A stretch of DNA of 41,933 nucleotides, taken from positions 1-41,933 of the forward strand of contig JAEOSG010000004.1 of the NCBI GenBank assembly GCA_016840485.1. Reading direction: 5' to 3'. Position numbers and translations under genes: made by a program. The notes under the pieces are model-generated. The model saw nothing but the letters and a program-made list of their open reading frames with translations, did not search any database and was not told the origin of the DNA. Positions 4,141-41,394 of this stretch are shown one piece after another. Source of the DNA: Candidatus Baldrarchaeota archaeon (lineage in GTDB: Archaea; Asgardarchaeota; Baldrarchaeia; Baldrarchaeales; DXJG01). The number at the start of each line of letters is the position of its first letter. Position 1 is the stretch's first letter.

Positions 4141-5232
4141 TCATAGTAACTTATTTAAACGTTTTTTTAATTCTTTTGCAATAACCTCGGCCGGATCTTC
4201 CATATGGTTTAATATTTTTAGTGCTCGTTCCTTATGGGAACTTAAAAATTTTTCTGCATTCTGTAAAATATTTAATGCTAATTTAACTGTCTTTTCTGGA
4301 TTTTTTACCCTATATATTAACTTTGCATTTACCAAGTAGCGTTCAACAAGTGTGGTTTTTCCTGGGAAACACGATATGACCGGTTTTCCCAGAAGAGCGG
4401 CTTCTATGTTCATTGTACCCCCCGCTCCTATAAATAAGCTGGAGTAGTATAGGAGACTAGCAGTGTCAATAGCATGTTCAGGAATTACAACATTTTCTGC
4501 TAATTTTTCCTTTAATACTTTTCTTTGCTCCTTGTACCTTGGTATAATTACTATTTGGACCTTGTTCTCTAAAAGTTTAAGCAATTTTTGTGCTATTTTT
4601 ATCGTAACTGGACAAATATTGGATATCTTTCCTCTAAGATAAGCCGCGTAAGCTTCTGTTGGTCTTATCGTGACAATCGGCTGTTTTAAGTTCAATTTTA
4701 AGTTCTTTAAGATTTCTGGATTTGGTTGAAAGTCCTTGATCCATGTAACGGGATCCAGTGCTCTATACTGAATGATAGCTTGTTTAGGTATTCCATATTT
4801 TTCCCAAACTTTTTTAGGGATTATTTTTGGTGTAAATAGTAATTTAGATAATGGAATTGTTAATCGAGCAACTGCTTCGGAATGAGGGGAGTCATTTACA
4901 CATACATGTGGTATGTTGAGCCCGTAGGCTACCCGTGCCGCTTCAGGAGATGAAAAAGATAAAGCTATGTCTGGTTCTATTTTTTCTATGTGACGAATTA
5001 GGAATAAAATTCTTTCAGTGCTTGCTAATAGTTTATCTTTAAGGCGGTAGCCTCCATGTTTACCGATTATTGGTATATTTAATCCCTTTAATTTTATGAG
5101 TTCACAAACCTCTTGATACTCTCTTGAAGTAAGAAAAACTTCAAAACCGTGTTCTTCTAGTTTTTTTGAAATTTTTGTGAGAAATAATAGTTGCTTCGGG
5201 GTAAGTACATCAATCCATATTTTGGTCAACAT
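4141..5232 (-). CDS. DUF354 family protein (GT-B-like glycosyltransferase)
   Basis: This 363-residue protein matches the archaeal/bacterial DUF354 family by its start (KIWIDVLTPKQLLFLTKISK) and by SFSSPEAARVAYGLNIPHVCVNDSPHSEAV. The fold resembles UDP-GlcNAc 2-epimerase and MurG-type GT-B enzymes. The C-terminal half has the nucleotide-sugar-like region LYYSSLFIGAGGTMNIEAALLGKPV. I chose the ATG at 5232 because it gives the family N-terminus and has GGTG about 6 nt upstream. A longer frame from 5262 would add ten residues. It is the first gene of a five-gene operon and is followed by a GPT-like transferase. It probably acts on or near the same lipid-linked sugar. The exact reaction is unknown for the family. 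Confidence 0.9.
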   Translation of the reverse strand: MLTKIWIDVLTPKQLLFLTKISKKLEEHGFEVFLTSREYQEVCELIKLKGLNIPIIGKHGGYRLKDKLLASTERILFLIRHIEKIEPDIALSFSSPEAARVAYGLNIPHVCVNDSPHSEAVARLTIPLSKLLFTPKIIPKKVWEKYGIPKQAIIQYRALDPVTWIKDFQPNPEILKNLKLNLKQPIVTIRPTEAYAAYLRGKISNICPVTIKIAQKLLKLLENKVQIVIIPRYKEQRKVLKEKLAENVVIPEHAIDTASLLYYSSLFIGAGGTMNIEAALLGKPVISCFPGKTTLVERYLVNAKLIYRVKNPEKTVKLALNILQNAEKFLSSHKERALKILNHMEDPAEVIAKELKKRLNKLL

Positions 5233-15299: not shown

Positions 15300-17729
15300 T
15301 CATTCTATTTTTCCGATGTAAGTTTTGTAGAGTTTCTTTATTGCGCTCCTGAACATCGTATATGCTGCTGCAGGTTCTAGGTTAATTACGTCCAAGGTTT
15401 GTTTCCAACTTCTTGCTTGAAGACTCTTTAAAATAAGTAACAACGTTTTTCCTTCGGAAAGCTTTACTCTATCTGAAGTATGATCTAAAAAGTACATTTT
15501 TACTATTTCGCGAATTACGTCGCAAACAACTTCATAGTATAGTGCACCCTTAACATATGCTTCAAGCCGTTTCCGCTGGCTTTCCGTTAAACTTAATTCG
15601 TGAAACCTTTCTTCTACACCTTTTAATTTTGAGTTGAGAATATACATAGCTATTTCTGGTTCCATATCGTAATGTAGGTCTCGTAACCATTCAACAAATT
15701 TTATTTTAAACTCTTTGAAAATAAACTTGGTAATTTCTTTTGCTTTATCAGAAAGGGGTTTTATTACTATCGTAGAATATTCTCCGCTAATAGGATTTCT
15801 TCTCGGGCTAACGTGTATTGGTATGAAGCCGTTTTTGATCCAGAATCGAAGGAGTTCTGGTGTTGCACCGAAACCAGCTCCAACCCAATCTAACCCCTCT
15901 TTTTTAGCTTCTTCGCAAAGTCTTGATAAACCCTCACTTCCCAGTCCCATGCTCATAACTTGTGGGTGTGTTGCAATTCTAACGATTCTATACCCTTTAA
16001 GTTTTGGGAACTCTACATCCCGAAAATGTTTTTCCACAAGAGTTGGTATTATGTTTCCATCTGGCTCAAACCCGCTATAGATTTCCTTTATAACGTCGTC
16101 AGGTAGTCCTCCCTCTAACGCAACTTGAATAGCGTTAACAATTTTTCCGTTCTTTGTCTCAAGCATGTAGGCCTTATGGTGGGGGGCATCGGCGAGGAGT
16201 GCTACATCTTTAGGTTGGTTTCTATAATGTGCATATACGTAGATGCCAACAAATTGTCTTAGTTTTTCTTCGTTGCCATCTATGAACCACTCATCTAAGT
16301 TGGCTTTTTTGAATACGACCTTCATCTTTTTTATTTGTTCTATATCTTTTCTTAAAAGCTGAGCTGGCTCTGCGTCGAGAAGAAGAGCGTCATAAAGCCA
16401 TTGCTCAATGGGATCATCTTCACTATAACGGATAGGTTCCTCCAATTCAACCATATTGATTTCTATGTTTTTAATTTCCTTTAATCCTCCTAGAAATCTT
16501 ATAGAAAATCCTCTACCCGCTCCTTCATAACCATGTATGGTGGATGAGTATATAATTCTCTTAGCTTTTCTTAATAGACGGAAGAGCAACGGAATAGGGA
16601 TGCCCGCTGCTTCGTCCACAGCAGTGATATCAGCCTTTCGCTCAATCGCATCCCACGGAGATTCATAAAATATTCTAATTCCTGAAGCTGTTACTTCTTC
16701 AATATAATAATCTCGTGTTTTAACTTTCGGTGAATAGCCAAATCTTTTAAGCATTCTAATAGCAAATTCAAAAAGTGTCCTAACATTTCCTATTTGTGGA
16801 GAAGTTACTAGAATGGACACTCTGCCTGAGGGAAAACTTTTCTTTAATTCATGTGCTATTGCGGCTATGGCTATTCCGACTATGGCACTTTTTCCTCGTC
16901 CTCTGTCGGCAATCATAACTATAACAGGTTTCTTTTCCCTTTTTATCAAAAATCTTTCCATTACTTTTAAGGCTCTTACTTGTCCTTGGGTTAGAGCCAT
17001 TTCATAGGCTTCTTTCGGTAACATGTGTTCTTCCGGAATACTTATGGTCATGTGACTTTTACTAGAAATCTGTTCTTTAGTAACTTTCAAGGCAATCTCT
17101 TCATCTACATCAAAAATATAAATGCCTTGATGTTCCTTTAATTTTCTTATAAATCTTTTATTGAATCTTCCAGGAACGTCATCAATAGTCCATGGAGGTG
17201 TTATGAGTTTTTTGTGGAAGCGTGTTTTCATAACCAACCATTTATCCATTGGAGGAGCCAATATTATGATGATTCCACCGCCACTAACAGTTTCAATTAA
17301 CCGGCCAAGGTCATTTGGGTTTAAATCTCTATTTAGATCTAAAACTAATACATCAAAAGTTTGTCCCATAACGTTATCTGTATTTTTAAAACTAATTCCA
17401 TTAACTTCGACTTTTTTATGATTTTGTTCTATCCTTGACTTAAGTTCCATGTATAGTTCCTTTTCACGTCCGGAAGAGATATCTACTGCTACATAGAGCA
17501 TTCTTATTTGTACATCGCCCTTAATTTCAATGAATTTGGAGAAAACTTTATAGGCGGCATCAATTACCCTCTTGTCACTTCCACAAAAAACAAACATTCT
17601 TCTATGGTTATTTTTTATTGCGGTCTTAATAGCAAGCTCAGATATTTGTTCAAGACCATTCAAAAATTTTTCAGAGCAAGTTTTAATTTCAGTTTTTTCT
17701 TCTTTGGTAGCCGTGGCCACCGATACCAC
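15300..17729 (-). CDS. tmcA: tRNA/rRNA cytidine N4-acetyltransferase TmcA (NAT10/Kre33 family)
   Basis: This 809-residue enzyme makes N4-acetylcytidine using acetyl-CoA and ATP. Bacterial TmcA modifies the tRNA-Met wobble base, and archaeal and eukaryotic relatives also acetylate rRNA and other RNAs. Domains in order: N-terminal DUF1726-like region (to about 200); RecD-like helicase with Walker A ADRGRGKSAIVG (about 277) and Walker B ITAVDEAAGIPIPLLFRLL; GNAT acetyltransferase with acetyl-CoA loop HPQVMSMGLGSEGL and GAGFGATPELLRFW; and the C-terminal tRNA-binding region (about 690-809). The start is GTG at 17729. A second GTG nine nt downstream is equally possible. It heads an operon with the ASCH protein. 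The promoter is in the 126-nt gap shared with the divergent KH gene. Confidence 0.96.
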   Translation of the reverse strand: MVSVATATKEEKTEIKTCSEKFLNGLEQISELAIKTAIKNNHRRMFVFCGSDKRVIDAAYKVFSKFIEIKGDVQIRMLYVAVDISSGREKELYMELKSRIEQNHKKVEVNGISFKNTDNVMGQTFDVLVLDLNRDLNPNDLGRLIETVSGGGIIIILAPPMDKWLVMKTRFHKKLITPPWTIDDVPGRFNKRFIRKLKEHQGIYIFDVDEEIALKVTKEQISSKSHMTISIPEEHMLPKEAYEMALTQGQVRALKVMERFLIKREKKPVIVMIADRGRGKSAIVGIAIAAIAHELKKSFPSGRVSILVTSPQIGNVRTLFEFAIRMLKRFGYSPKVKTRDYYIEEVTASGIRIFYESPWDAIERKADITAVDEAAGIPIPLLFRLLRKAKRIIYSSTIHGYEGAGRGFSIRFLGGLKEIKNIEINMVELEEPIRYSEDDPIEQWLYDALLLDAEPAQLLRKDIEQIKKMKVVFKKANLDEWFIDGNEEKLRQFVGIYVYAHYRNQPKDVALLADAPHHKAYMLETKNGKIVNAIQVALEGGLPDDVIKEIYSGFEPDGNIIPTLVEKHFRDVEFPKLKGYRIVRIATHPQVMSMGLGSEGLSRLCEEAKKEGLDWVGAGFGATPELLRFWIKNGFIPIHVSPRRNPISGEYSTIVIKPLSDKAKEITKFIFKEFKIKFVEWLRDLHYDMEPEIAMYILNSKLKGVEERFHELSLTESQRKRLEAYVKGALYYEVVCDVIREIVKMYFLDHTSDRVKLSEGKTLLLILKSLQARSWKQTLDVINLEPAAAYTMFRSAIKKLYKTYIGKIE

Positions 17730-29079: not shown

Positions 29080-30546
29080 ATGGTGGAGGAAATGAGTTAT
29101 AAAGGACCTCTTAAAAAATTGGATGAATACCTTTGGGAAATACCGCAAAACTACAAGCCATGTATGCGGGTTCCAGCAAGAATCTTTGCAGATGAATTTT
29201 TACTAGATAAAATGAAAACAGATCTAACTTTAGAACAAGCTGCAAATATTGCATGTTTACCAGGAGTATATAAATACAGTATAGTTCTTCCGGATGGTCA
29301 TCAAGGATATGGATTTCCAATAGGAGGAGTTGCAGCAAGCGATGCAGAAACGGGTGTAATTTCACCAGGTGGGGTAGGATACGACATTAATTGCGGTGTA
29401 AGGTTAATGAGAACCAACTTGAATAAAGATGAGGTACGTAAAGTTTTACCTGAGCTTTTAGAGGCATTATTTAGAAATATACCCAGTGGAGTCGGGAGTA
29501 CCGGGAAATTAAGGTTGTCAGGTGCTGAGTTAGATGAGGCAATGCAAGGCGGTGCAAAATGGGCTGTTGAACAAGGGTATGGTTGGGATGAAGATTGGAA
29601 GCATTGTGAAGAAGAAGGAGCAATGCCGGATGCAAACCCGGACATGGTATCATCAAGGGCAAAGCAAAGAGGAAGACCCCAACTTGGAACTTTAGGTAGT
29701 GGAAACCACTTCCTCGAAATACAATACGTAGATAAGATTTACAATCCAGAAGTAGCTAAAAGGCTTGGAATACGTGAAGAAGGACAAGTAACGGTTATGA
29801 TTCATACCGGTTCCAGAGGGTTTGGACATCAAGTTTGTTCTGACTATCTTAGAGTTATGGAGAGAGCCGTACATAAATATGGAATAAAGCTTCCAGATAG
29901 AGAGTTAGCATGCGCACCAGCGAATAGCAAAGAAGCTGAACAATATTTCCAAGCAATGCAATGTGCAGCCAATTTTGCTTGGGCAAACAGGCAACTAATA
30001 ACTCACTGGACAAGAGAATCATTCCAGAAAGTGTTTAAGAAAGATGCCGAAGACTTAGATTTACATTTAATTTATGATGTTGCTCACAATATAGCGAAAT
30101 TAGAAGAACATAGAGTTGACGGAAAGAGAGTTAAAGTCTTTGTCCATAGAAAAGGTGCCACAAGAGCATTTCCACCAGGACATAGAGATATACCCGCCGA
30201 CTATCGGGAAATGGGCCAACCTGTATTAATACCTGGTAGCATGGGAACCGCTAGCTATCTGTTAATTGGATCAAAGCAGGCTATGGAGATTACGTTCGGT
30301 AGTACTGCTCATGGTGCAGGGCGACATTTGTCACGGGCCGCTGCGACTCGACGTTACTGGGGTTCCACCGTAAAGAAAGAGTTAGAGCAAAGGGGAATAC
30401 TGATTAGAGCTGCGAACATCAGAGTTGTTGCAGAAGAAGCTCCAGGTGCGTACAAGGATATCGATAGGGTTGTTATGGTTAGCCATAAGGTTGGTATTGC
30501 TACTCTTGTAGCGAGAATGGTGCCAATGGGCGTTACGAAAGGTTAA
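29080..30546 (+). CDS. rtcB: RtcB RNA-splicing ligase
   Basis: This 488-residue GTP- and Mn-dependent ligase joins 2',3'-cyclic-phosphate and 5'-hydroxyl RNA ends. In archaea it seals tRNA exons (and other BHB-spliced RNAs) after cutting by the splicing endonuclease. The metal-binding Cys lies in GGVGYDINCGVRLMRTNL (about residue 105). HTGSRGFGHQVCSDYL, VAHNIAKLEEH and the guanylylated His region FGSTAHGAGRHLSRAAA are all intact. The length is normal and no intein is present. No archease gene is adjacent. Its presence matters here because the pyrG gene 6.4 kb downstream appears to carry a BHB intron. Confidence 0.97.
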   Translation: MVEEMSYKGPLKKLDEYLWEIPQNYKPCMRVPARIFADEFLLDKMKTDLTLEQAANIACLPGVYKYSIVLPDGHQGYGFPIGGVAASDAETGVISPGGVGYDINCGVRLMRTNLNKDEVRKVLPELLEALFRNIPSGVGSTGKLRLSGAELDEAMQGGAKWAVEQGYGWDEDWKHCEEEGAMPDANPDMVSSRAKQRGRPQLGTLGSGNHFLEIQYVDKIYNPEVAKRLGIREEGQVTVMIHTGSRGFGHQVCSDYLRVMERAVHKYGIKLPDRELACAPANSKEAEQYFQAMQCAANFAWANRQLITHWTRESFQKVFKKDAEDLDLHLIYDVAHNIAKLEEHRVDGKRVKVFVHRKGATRAFPPGHRDIPADYREMGQPVLIPGSMGTASYLLIGSKQAMEITFGSTAHGAGRHLSRAAATRRYWGSTVKKELEQRGILIRAANIRVVAEEAPGAYKDIDRVVMVSHKVGIATLVARMVPMGVTKG

Positions 30547-36928: not shown

Positions 36929-38630
36929 TTGACAAAGTATATATTTGTAACAGGTGGAGTGATGTCTGGTATCGGTAAAGGGGTTACCACAGCTTCGATA
37001 GCTAAACTTTTTCAATTTAGAGGATTCACTGTCGATGCTATAAAGATAGACCCTTAACACGGCTAGATTCGCCTAGCCGTGGGGGAATTTAAATGTTGAT
37101 CCAGGTACTCTTAACCCGATAGAACATGGAGAGGTTTTTGTAACTGAGGAAGTTTGGGAGTTTACACCGGCGGATGGATTTAAATTTAGAATATCTGAAA
37201 TTGACCAGGATTTTGGAACATATGAGCGGTTTTTGGATAAAAATATACATCCCTGCAATAATATTACTAGCGGCCAGGTTTATTTGTCAGTTATTCTTCG
37301 CGAAAGGATTGGAAAATATCTTGGTAAGACTGTTCAAATAATACCTCACATTACTGATGAAATAAAAAACAGAATCAGACAAGTTGCTATGAGAGAAAAA
37401 CCAGATATATTGATTATTGAAGTGGGAGGAACTGTAGGCGACATAGAGGCTATGCCTTTTCTTGAAGCCATAAGACAATTTCGACTGGAGGAACCTAAAG
37501 AAAATACTGCATTAGTTCACGTTACTCTTCTTCCCTTTCTCAAAACTGTTGGGGAGTTAAAGACTAAACCTACGCAACATAGCGTTAAAGTTCTTCAAGG
37601 CATGGGTCTTCAGCCTGATGTTATTGTTGGTAGAGCAGAAATTCCCCTAAATCAGAAAATAAAAGAAAAAATAAGTTTATACTGCAACGTTCCAGTAGAA
37701 GCTGTAATTTCAAATCCCGATACCGATTGTGTATATGAACTTCCACTTCTTTTTGAAGAACAGGGCCTTGGAGACTATCTGTCTAAAATCCTAAACCTTC
37801 AGAAACGCCCTCCCTCGCTTCAAAACTGGAAACAGGTCGTATACAAATTTAAGAATTTCAATGACACCGTGAAAATAGCAATGCCCGGTAAATACACAGC
37901 TATTATTGATAGTTATATTTCGATAAATGAAGCTCTAAAACACGCAGGGGCGCATCTAGGAGTAAAAGTATTACTTGAATGGATTGAAACTGAAATGTTT
38001 GAGGAAGATCCAGATAAATTAAGTATACTGGATAATTTTGATGGCATTCTTCTTACACCCGGTTTTGGTAAGAGAGGCGTAGAGGGTATGATTGCAACTG
38101 CAGATTATGCTATACTTAAGGGAAAACCATTCTTAGGAATATGTTTCGGTGCCCAACTTTTGTTCATAGCCTTTTGCAGAAGGGTATTAGGGTTAAAGAA
38201 TGCAAATAGTACGGAAATTGACCCAAACACACCACATCCTGTGGTTGATATGCTTCCAGAACAACGTAGGGTTGAGGCAAAGGGTGGAACCATGCGGCTA
38301 GGGGGACATAAGATTTACATTAAGAGGGGAACAAAGCTTTTCGAGGCCTATGGAAAGGAAGTCGTTGTAGAGAGATTTAGACATAGATATCATATTATTA
38401 AGAAATATGCAGAGAAAGCTGAAAGTAAAAACTTGGTTGTTTCAGCGTATGATGAAACTGGCAATATCATAAATGCGATAGAACTTGCTAATGATTCTTG
38501 GATTGTAGGAGTTCAATTCCATCCAGAGTTCAAAAGTAGACCTAATAGACCGTCTCCCATATACGTTTCATTCATCAAAGAGGCTCTAAAACATAAGAGA
38601 AATAGAAGGGGAGCAAACACTAATGTTTGA
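36929..38630 (+). CDS. pyrG: CTP synthase, split by a 31-nt BHB intron
   Basis: This enzyme makes CTP from UTP, ATP and glutamine. Exon 1 (36929-37056, TTG start, GGGGTG about 7 nt before it) codes for 42 residues, [20 protein letters not shown] to AIKIDP, then meets TAA. Exon 2 (37088-38630) resumes in another frame at [20 protein letters not shown]. Removing 37057-37087 gives GAC CCT TAT TTA AAT (DPYLN) and a 556-residue product. The synthetase domain (to about 285) shows [11 protein letters not shown] and [20 protein letters not shown]. The glutaminase domain has the nucleophile GICFGAQLL and GVQFHPEF. A 12-13-residue insertion ([12 protein letters not shown]) follows HGEVFVT. The stop overlaps the nurA start by 8 nt. 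Confidence 0.95.
37057..37087 (+). other. BHB intron in pyrG pre-mRNA
   Basis: The 31-nt intron has an inner hairpin of 9 bp (37058-37066 with 37073-37081, loop ATTCGC). The 4-bp central helix is CCCT of exon 1 (37051-37054) with GGGG of the intron (37082-37085). The 5' bulge is TA|A (37055-37057) and the 3' bulge is AA|T (37086-37088). Cuts after the second base of each bulge, as the archaeal EndA endonuclease makes, fall at exactly 37056/37057 and 37087/37088 and restore the frame. The outer helix is weak (A-T, G-T), a relaxed form tolerated by TACK-type endonucleases. Confidence 0.92.
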
Positions 38631-39777
38631 TTTGCAAAGACAAGTAAAAAATGTTGTAAAGAACCTCATAAAAATCGAAAAAAGTAAAGAAACTTTTTGC
38701 AACATCCTCAGATCCATTAAAAGAAAAGCAGAAATTTCTTTTTTGCCTAAAATTGGCCGGATGGATTTATTAGAAGATAAATTCACATATTCCGTGGTGC
38801 CTACCAGTCTTAAAGGTCTTTGCATAGCTGGAGTTGATGGTGGAATTGTTAGTCGATCTTTACATTGTGCTGATATGATTGTTACTAGGGCTGTAGCAGC
38901 TATTTTTAGATACGAATCTGAAAATGGCCCTTGTGTTGAATATTTCCCGGATAAGTTTCCAGAACCAAAAATAATAGTTAATATTACTCCGTTAAATAGA
39001 ATTAATTCAGAAATAAATGCTAATTTAGAGAGGCTTAAAGCTGAGTTAGAAGTAGCAATTAAGACTCAAGATGAATATACCATTGATGTAATTCTTCTTA
39101 ATGGATCACTCCTCCCGCAAGTTACAGATAAACCCTTTACCCCGAGTACACCGTTAACCAAAAAGTACGAAAAAATCATAGATTTATATGTAAAGTTATA
39201 TGAAAAATCCATGGAGACAAATACTATTTTAGCTGGAGTGATCGAGGACAGCAGAAGTACAAGATTCATGCAGATTATAAATAGAATACTTCCGCATATG
39301 ATTTATAAATATCCTGAACTCAGGGATCTATTAAATTTTGATTACAGACAAGTATTAAGACTAATGAGAGATTCAGATTTTTTATTCCGATTTTTGGACG
39401 TAGGCGAGAGAACTCTAACATTTCAATATTCCGAAAACCCGTACGAACACCCAATTCTAAAAGATTTAAAAAATAGAGGATGGAAGCAGCCAATTGCAGT
39501 TTTTTATCTTAAAACTGTGGAGTTTGATATTCCACTTCGAATAGAATATTTAACATCCAAATTTGACCCAATAACTTTAGCAAACAGGTTAGCTTCAATA
39601 ATTTATCCTCTTTCAAGCTATCATCCTGAGTACGCAACTCCTTCAGTCATAGTTGAAGCAGATGCAAGAGCAAGGCTCCTTGAATCAGACCTTGAGATCG
39701 TTTATGACAGTTTAGTTCATGCTATGGGGATGATACCCTCATTACTTAGACTTAGGCGAGATAGAAGACCATTTTAA
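38623..39777 (+). CDS. nurA: NurA 5'-3' nuclease
   Basis: This 384-residue nuclease works with the HerA translocase and Mre11-Rad50 in double-strand-break end resection. RNase H-like active-site features are IAGVDGGIVSRSLHCAD (catalytic Asp about residue 70), DVILLNGSLLP (second acidic strand) and the C-terminal IIYPLSSYHPEYATPSVIVEADARARL. The start ATG overlaps the pyrG stop by 8 nt, so nurA translation depends on the pyrG message, and on its splicing if coupling is tight. herA follows after 90 nt. The length fits the family. Confidence 0.93.
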   Translation: MFDLQRQVKNVVKNLIKIEKSKETFCNILRSIKRKAEISFLPKIGRMDLLEDKFTYSVVPTSLKGLCIAGVDGGIVSRSLHCADMIVTRAVAAIFRYESENGPCVEYFPDKFPEPKIIVNITPLNRINSEINANLERLKAELEVAIKTQDEYTIDVILLNGSLLPQVTDKPFTPSTPLTKKYEKIIDLYVKLYEKSMETNTILAGVIEDSRSTRFMQIINRILPHMIYKYPELRDLLNFDYRQVLRLMRDSDFLFRFLDVGERTLTFQYSENPYEHPILKDLKNRGWKQPIAVFYLKTVEFDIPLRIEYLTSKFDPITLANRLASIIYPLSSYHPEYATPSVIVEADARARLLESDLEIVYDSLVHAMGMIPSLLRLRRDRRPF

Positions 39778-39842
39778 CATCAGATTAGATACTGGTTTTT
39801 AGCGCCACTTTATCCTAACCGACTTATCACATAAGAAAGAAT

Positions 39843-39850
39843 TTTATAAT
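39843..39850 (+). promoter_or_regulatory. TATA box of herA
   Basis: TTTATAAT lies 18-25 nt before the herA ATG at 39868. This spacing predicts a leaderless herA transcript and gives herA its own promoter besides read-through from nurA. Confidence 0.45.
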
Positions 39851-39867
39851 GTTTTATTTTTAAAAGC

Positions 39868-41394
39868 ATGGGGATACCTGTGGAAAGAGAAATAGGAACA
39901 GTTATATGCACCAGTAATGGTCCGAGTGCTGTTGAATTCAACTTTGTAGTTACAAATACCTCCTTATCTGTGCCGGTTAGAACTGGTCAATTTGTTGAAG
40001 TTAGAACTGAAGAAGGAATGATGATTGCTCAGGTAACTGAAATTATAAAGACTAATAGGTATTTTATGCATGCTGAGGCGGTTAGAGAGTATGAGAAGGG
40101 AGGAAAACCGCTAACAACAATATTCCCAGTTGATAAATGGGAGTACATCATAGCTAAGGCGAAACCACTTGCAGTAAGCGTAAACGGGCAACTAGAAAGA
40201 GTAACTTTTCCGCCGTCACCGGGAGAAAAAGTTAAAATTGCAGATAAAGACACATTGGCAGAATTTTTAGGGTTAGATTTAGAAAATGGTGTAGAACTTG
40301 GCACGGTTCGCTATCATAATATACCAGCAAAGTTAAATCTCACAAGATTGCTTCAAAAGCATTTAGCCATCCTCGCAATTTCTGGAGCTGGTAAATCTTA
40401 TCTTGCATCCGTTTTGACGGAAGAATTATTGTTACGTGATCCATCGAAAGGAAGGGTTGCGGTTGTGATTATTGATGTTCATGGAGAATATGTTTCTTTT
40501 GCCGAAAAAATAAGTGACAACAATTATGTGGACTTTTCTGATAAAGCTTCCGTCTTTAAAAGTTCCTTCTTCCAAATAGCTGTTCCTCAAATAAGTGAAA
40601 GAATGTTTGGAGAATTTCAACCGCAAATGTCGCCAATTCAGATAAGGGAATTAGGTAGAATTTTAAAAAATCTTAAAAAGAGAATGTACAAAACAGGACT
40701 TCCTTATTCTCTTCAAGATGTTATAAAGGAAGTAGAACACGACGAGAAAATGAGCACACGAACAAAGGAAGCTCTTCTCGGATGGTTATACGACTTGGAA
40801 GATACAGGGCTTTTTGGACCTGTCGAATCTCCAAATTTAGAAAATATCGTAAAACTGGGCCGTGCAACAATAATTGACTTGAGTGAAACAATAAGCTTGA
40901 GAAATAAACAGATTTTAGTCTCGTATATTGCGCAAAGGCTTTTTGACATGCGTAAGCAGGAAAAAATACCACCATTTATTTTAATCCTAGAGGAGGCACA
41001 TCAATTTTGCCCCGAAGCGAGAAAGGAACTTGCAATATCGAAGAGTATTATTGAAACTATTGCTAGGGAAGGAAGGAAGTTTTTTGCATCTCTCTGCCTC
41101 ATAAGTCAAAGACCCGTAAAGCTGTCAACAACAGTACTATCACAGTGCAACACCCACATAATTCTTCGCATTACAAACCCCTATGACTTAAAACATATAG
41201 GTGAAAGTAGTGAGGGAATAGATAAAGCTGTGCTAGATGTTATCACAACTCTTAACGTAGGTGAGGCCCTAGTTGTAGGTGAAGCCGTAAACTTTCCACT
41301 GTTTATCAAAATTAGAAAAAGAAAAAGCAAAGAACCAAAACATGCGTTAAACTTAGAAGAAGTTGCAAGAATCTATGAAAGAATATTTACTTAA
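39868..41394 (+). CDS. herA: HerA DNA-translocating ATPase
   Basis: This 508-residue hexameric ATPase is of the FtsK/HerA family and pumps DNA through NurA during end resection. The N-terminal HAS-barrel (residues 1-130, GQFVEVRTEEGMMIAQVTEI) is followed by Walker A LAISGAGKSYLASVLTEEL (about 170-188) and Walker B FILILEEAHQFCPEA (about 370). The motif RSREGRKF-like IETIAREGRKFFASLCLISQRP holds the arginine finger and sensor. It lies directly after nurA, the standard archaeal pairing. mre11 and rad50 are not in this window. Everything needed for activity is present. Confidence 0.96.
   Translation: MGIPVEREIGTVICTSNGPSAVEFNFVVTNTSLSVPVRTGQFVEVRTEEGMMIAQVTEIIKTNRYFMHAEAVREYEKGGKPLTTIFPVDKWEYIIAKAKPLAVSVNGQLERVTFPPSPGEKVKIADKDTLAEFLGLDLENGVELGTVRYHNIPAKLNLTRLLQKHLAILAISGAGKSYLASVLTEELLLRDPSKGRVAVVIIDVHGEYVSFAEKISDNNYVDFSDKASVFKSSFFQIAVPQISERMFGEFQPQMSPIQIRELGRILKNLKKRMYKTGLPYSLQDVIKEVEHDEKMSTRTKEALLGWLYDLEDTGLFGPVESPNLENIVKLGRATIIDLSETISLRNKQILVSYIAQRLFDMRKQEKIPPFILILEEAHQFCPEARKELAISKSIIETIAREGRKFFASLCLISQRPVKLSTTVLSQCNTHIILRITNPYDLKHIGESSEGIDKAVLDVITTLNVGEALVVGEAVNFPLFIKIRKRKSKEPKHALNLEEVARIYERIFT

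Follow-up and report, generated by a model that had tools for sequence, protein, structure and literature searches.

A predicted BHB intron in the CTP synthase mRNA of a Baldrarchaeota archaeon, within a set of candidate introns in housekeeping genes of its lineage

The interrupted pyrG gene

The window analysed here is a stretch of 41,933 nt from a Candidatus Baldrarchaeota archaeon (contig JAEOSG010000004.1), whose genome, G000, is a fragmented 3.2-Mb MAG, 91% complete and with 8% contamination; it was compared with two congeners (G001 and G002) and with a member of the same order (G003), all of these genomes being MAGs. The CTP synthase gene, pyrG, lies on the forward strand as two exons separated by 31 nt. 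Exon 1 (36929-37056) begins with a TTG start and contains 42 codons plus the TA of a split Tyr codon; it matches positions 1-40 of the CTP_synth_N HMM and agrees with the spliced translation. The frame runs through KIDP and then meets TAA at 37055-37057, so that unspliced mRNA would give 42 residues only, as an earlier note on this DNA had pointed out. The protein is open again from 37088 in a different frame: exon 2 (37088-38630, forward strand) starts with the T of the split Tyr codon and comprises 514 codons and a stop, covering HMM positions 42-265 and the GATase domain. No reading frame is open through the insert. Excision of 37057-37087 restores the DPYLN motif at nucleotide precision and gives a full CTP synthase of 556 aa, with the Pfam N-domain complete (1-265/265) and the GATase domain present; the sequence and this translation agree with the earlier reading of a frame that stops at 37055 in DPYLN and resumes 31 nt further on. 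At the codon rebuilt by joining the exons, Tyr is invariant, occurring in 105/105 relatives where the motif was found. A second pyrG, which the earlier note had regarded, if intact, as potential counter-evidence, was not found in the G000 genome. Directly after pyrG, NurA and HerA-like genes are present on the same strand (window positions 38623-41394).

The 31-nt insert (37057-37087, forward strand) was delimited by folding, BHB scan, congener comparison and spliced translation. Its central helix of 4 bp is formed by the exonic CCCT (37051-37054), which is CCCC in G001 and still pairs, and by the intronic GGGG (37082-37085). The inner hairpin is a 9-bp stem of CACGGCTAG (37058-37066) and CTAGCCGTG (37073-37081) closed by a 6-nt loop (37067-37072). 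Two 3-nt bulges complete the motif: TA|A (37055-37057, predicted cut 37056/37057), which doubles as the TAA stop of the unspliced frame, and AA|T (37086-37088, predicted cut 37087/37088). This structure is the RNAfold minimum and was also recovered by the scan, in keeping with the near-textbook splicing-endonuclease substrate described previously; the outer helix measures 2 bp in the window's copy versus 4 bp in G001. The predicted cuts, after the second base of each bulge, coincide with the exon ends, split the Tyr codon as TA^T and rebuild DPYLN exactly; both therefore fall where the conserved protein demands them, as had been proposed. Two equivalent cut registers exist at the junction, one of which is the canonical BHB cut.

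In a brute-force scan of both strands of the 42-kb window the pyrG site ranked first among BHBs, with an energy of -28.1, while the runner-up among gene-splitting, frame-joining candidates reached -16.5. The specificity of the motif was evaluated on both strands of G001 (1.9 Mb), where 16 BHBs with true 3-nt bulges were found at E<=-26 versus 0-6 with mock bulges of 1, 2 or 4-7 nt; at E<=-24 the figures were 30 and 2-8, tRNA introns accounting for part of the excess. Because true-bulge BHBs outnumber mock-bulge ones in this genome, we estimate at ~1e-5 the chance of finding a BHB this strong within ~10 nt of a given gene break. A group I or group II self-splicing intron was considered and rejected, since the window as a whole gave no match to any Rfam family and the insert is 31 nt long.

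The predicted pyrG intron in related genomes

Alignment of pyrG from relatives, a check named in the earlier note, locates an interruption at the same place in both congeners, with an identical 31 nt in G002 and 32 nt in G001, whose removal gives the same protein; the gene is uninterrupted in G003 and in most of the 59 Asgard genomes searched. Compared to the window's BHB, that of G001 differs in its loop, has G-U in place of A-U in the stem and C-G in place of U-G in the central helix. The genus is represented by three genomes, and the pyrG introns of two of these are identical. Between G000 and G001 the exons have a Ka/Ks of about 0.03, with Ks near saturation; they are under strong purifying selection, and this includes exon 1 taken alone.

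These data bear on the possibility that pyrG is a pseudogene, or that the insert arose as an error of assembly, which the earlier note had contemplated, or of binning. The fragmented state of the source MAG and its contamination would favour such an explanation; however, the same interruption is found in three separate genomes and in two lengths, strong selection acts on both exons and no other pyrG is present, making this reading hardly credible.

Predicted BHB introns in other housekeeping genes

The 1.92 Mb of G001 were scanned for BHBs whose removal joins coding frames, and candidates were retained only if the BHB was strong and short-looped and the protein conserved on either side of the junction. 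At weak energies the number of ORF-joining BHBs was no better than in frame-shifted controls, because neighbouring genes join by chance; a relaxed scan, in which the central helix could contain a mismatch, contributed glyA intron 3 alone and apart from this did no better than its own frame-shifted controls. The accepted set comprises ten BHB introns in eight protein genes of G001. Besides the 32-nt pyrG intron, these are found in infB/aIF5B (33 nt, GGI^TQHIGA), porG (35 nt, FGAE^RRGAP), pcm (31 nt, SAP^HMVA), atpD (36 nt, PPTR^MELL), rpoN (41 nt, IIPVR^CFTCGK) and a cyclic-2,3-diphosphoglycerate-synthetase-like (cDPGS-like) gene (22 nt, GRD^FHNFN), a label given by eye to a protein whose first 75 residues have no Pfam match. 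The serine hydroxymethyltransferase gene, glyA, contains three: intron 1 (28 nt, LIASE^N), intron 2 (26 nt, RYAE^GWPG) and intron 3 (29 nt, AG^KAVAFAEM), the last with the relaxed motif in its central helix.

Several other strong BHBs of G001 were discarded as mRNA introns, being tRNA introns, and a BHB-like hairpin at C6+ 17332-17357 was rejected since the GTPase gene around it is uninterrupted. A strong 29-nt BHB-like hairpin is also located just upstream of the transcription factor B (TFB) gene (C17+ 241579-241607), with no coding exon upstream of it.

The pyrG, infB, porG and all three glyA introns are also present in G000 and G002; thus, glyA carries three BHB introns in 3/3 genomes of the genus (L262, L263 and G001 C6- 43039-44300), the middle one being 26-27 nt long. 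A second SHMT-family match in G000 (C297:36287-37152, locus L265) is likewise interrupted, by one internal TAA and one internal TGA. The pcm intron occurs in G000 too, and no pcm match was found in G002; the atpD, rpoN and cDPGS-like introns were examined in G001 alone. Intron length varies among genomes: the pcm intron has 30 nt in G000, 31 nt in G001 and 32 nt in G003, and the porG intron 33 nt in G000, 35 nt in G001 and 34 nt in G002, the protein remaining the same throughout. All three length classes modulo 3 preserve the protein frame, and therefore the insert is not read through. The stems of the pcm, porG and infB introns have compensatory pair changes between genomes; in the alignment of four infB sequences, three pairs changed on both sides, where shuffles gave 0.8, and pairing holds in 96% of cells, against <=40% in slid controls. 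With four sequences, this covariation supports the structure, short of proof.

A stop codon and a hairpin can also interrupt a reading frame in translational bypassing, as in phage T4 gene 60. Applied to pyrG, the ribosome would take off from CCT, the Pro codon that precedes the stop, and land in or beyond the hairpin, with no RNA cleavage; the stop followed directly by a stable hairpin, and a Pro triplet CCG that lies upstream of the junction in the frame of exon 2, are the features that would suit it. However, the only possible jump, from CCT to CCG, would produce DPWGNLN, with loss of the invariant Tyr, so that, differently from gene 60, pyrG offers no landing site giving the conserved protein. 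Moreover, the BHB cuts fall precisely at the split in the Tyr codon, the same geometry and exact cuts, following the BHB rule, recur in many unrelated genes with different flanking codons, and the intron stems covary; bypassing is thus very improbable.

A different proposal accepts a real intron and holds that regulated splicing, by setting the level of CTP synthase, is the reason for its retention. Intron retention would halt translation after 42 residues, and the G000 and G002 introns are identical despite a difference at 26% of synonymous positions of pyrG; conversely, the structural need for splicing alone explains intron conservation, and the presence of introns in functionally unrelated genes is better fitted by passive insertion and retention. 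Regulation as the reason for retention is accordingly unlikely, and a control of CTP supply by splicing is a matter of speculation.

Predicted splicing machinery, known systems and possible spread

The window also contains rtcB (29080-30546, forward strand; Pfam RtcB 1-426/426, E 8e-183), encoding the RNA ligase that would join the exons. Two EndA genes are found in each genome of the genus. The alpha subunit, which keeps the catalytic His and Lys, has its best matches in PDB chains 3p1z_B and 3ajv_B, which we take to be the crenarchaeal enzyme of Aeropyrum pernix; in the other subunit the catalytic His is lost. The tRNA genes of G001 are intron-rich, and cbf5 is uninterrupted in this order, with no sign of the classic intron. 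Judged by sequence, the two subunits suit an (alpha-beta)2 enzyme of the hetero-oligomeric, broad-specificity type, which has been linked to relaxed substrates (PMC6379350) and to cbf5 splicing in Crenarchaeota (PMC2738675).

The BHB mRNA intron put forward in the earlier note is supported by the geometry, the cuts, conservation in congeners, intron-less relatives, the EndA and RtcB genes and the single pyrG. We hold with high confidence that the insert represents an archaeal BHB intron of the pyrG pre-mRNA, one of a set distributed across housekeeping genes of this Asgard lineage. For its cleavage and ligation, and for the enzymes responsible, we infer the following route: the transcript would fold so that CCCU of the 5' exon pairs with GGGG of the intron, leaving two 3-nt bulges; a two-subunit (alpha-beta)2 EndA would cleave both bulges behind their second base; RtcB would join the exons, and the intron would be released, perhaps as a circle. 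CTP synthase would then be encoded by the spliced mRNA only.

As of 2009, mRNA introns had been confirmed in Archaea for cbf5 only, and earlier predictions in other genes were mentioned in the same paper (PMC2738675); in 2016, a review still considered archaeal mRNA introns as confined to cbf5 (PMC4810243). The open PMC literature agrees with the earlier statement that no BHB intron is known in pyrG and that cbf5 of Crenarchaeota is the known case; neither a pyrG BHB intron nor an Asgard mRNA intron set was found in the open PMC papers searched, a scope too narrow to establish priority. The cbf5 pre-mRNA intron of Desulfurococcales and Sulfolobales (PMC2738675) resembles that of pyrG in being a BHB in a protein gene, cut between the second and third bulge base; both interrupt a conserved catalytic motif, have a patchy phylogeny and occur in hosts with a hetero-oligomeric EndA, predicted from sequence for the pyrG host. 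The differences concern the gene, the Asgard phylum, the length of about 31 nt and the membership of a set, which numbers about ten introns to a genome and as many as three within a gene. The introns of archaeal pre-tRNAs, whose BHBs may be canonical or relaxed (PMC6379350), have the motif and the predicted enzymes in common with the pyrG intron, and one of the mRNA inserts is similar to a tRNA intron encoded in its own genome; the pyrG intron, however, sits in an mRNA and must be removed exactly if the reading frame is to be kept. The cytoplasmic splicing of HAC1/XBP1 in eukaryotes (PMC4090602) likewise involves a short mRNA intron, a protein endonuclease and a tRNA ligase, as in the model for pyrG, but IRE1 makes the cuts, the motif is not a BHB and the process is stress-regulated.

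As for gain and loss, G003 shares the infB and pcm introns and lacks those of pyrG and glyA, and its porG has a different intron of 28 nt (VL^NTPMLGAF). A 30-nt BHB insert, in frame and with no stop, is present in the FBP aldolase/phosphatase gene of G001 alone (C17+ 208556-208585, locus L309), and it is missing from the aligned genes of G000, G002 and G003. It has the appearance of a recent acquisition, but it keeps the frame and might instead be translated, and for this reason it was left out of the ten. This insert matches the BHB of a predicted tRNA-Arg gene of G001 (C9+ 4557-4585) in 22/30 alignment columns, in a post hoc comparison picked from many pairs, a resemblance that hints at intron transposition.

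The main result is that the pyrG intron is one of a set distributed over several genes, for which there are signs of recent gain. As a broader and more tentative proposal, somewhat short of an even chance, BHB introns of this Asgard lineage may form a spreading mRNA class, copied from tRNA introns into conserved protein genes through recent gains that differ among species, several per gene in places, and removed by the tRNA-splicing machinery. If true, intron invasion would have a counterpart in Archaea, within the group most closely related to eukaryotes. Archaeal mRNA introns have so far been treated as a cbf5 curiosity, and the present set, about ten in eight housekeeping genes of one genus, makes mRNA intron gain, loss and mobility testable in a prokaryote of that group.

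Further cases are indicated at other sites in other Asgard families, where relaxed motifs were fitted by hand. In four genomes of family f6, infB carries a 29-nt hairpin insert that interrupts it at HGK^T (L242, L244, L246, L248); among 128 Asgard genomes with infB, internal stops are found only in these four and in the four of this order. Single-genome candidates are a 41-nt insert in glyA of G008 (GWPGE^RVYAG; L264, reverse strand) and a 31-nt insert in pyrG of G013 (GTY^ERFLG; L036 332-900). In the genomes carrying the introns, gene callers split essential genes, including those for CTP synthase, aIF5B, SHMT and an RNA polymerase subunit.
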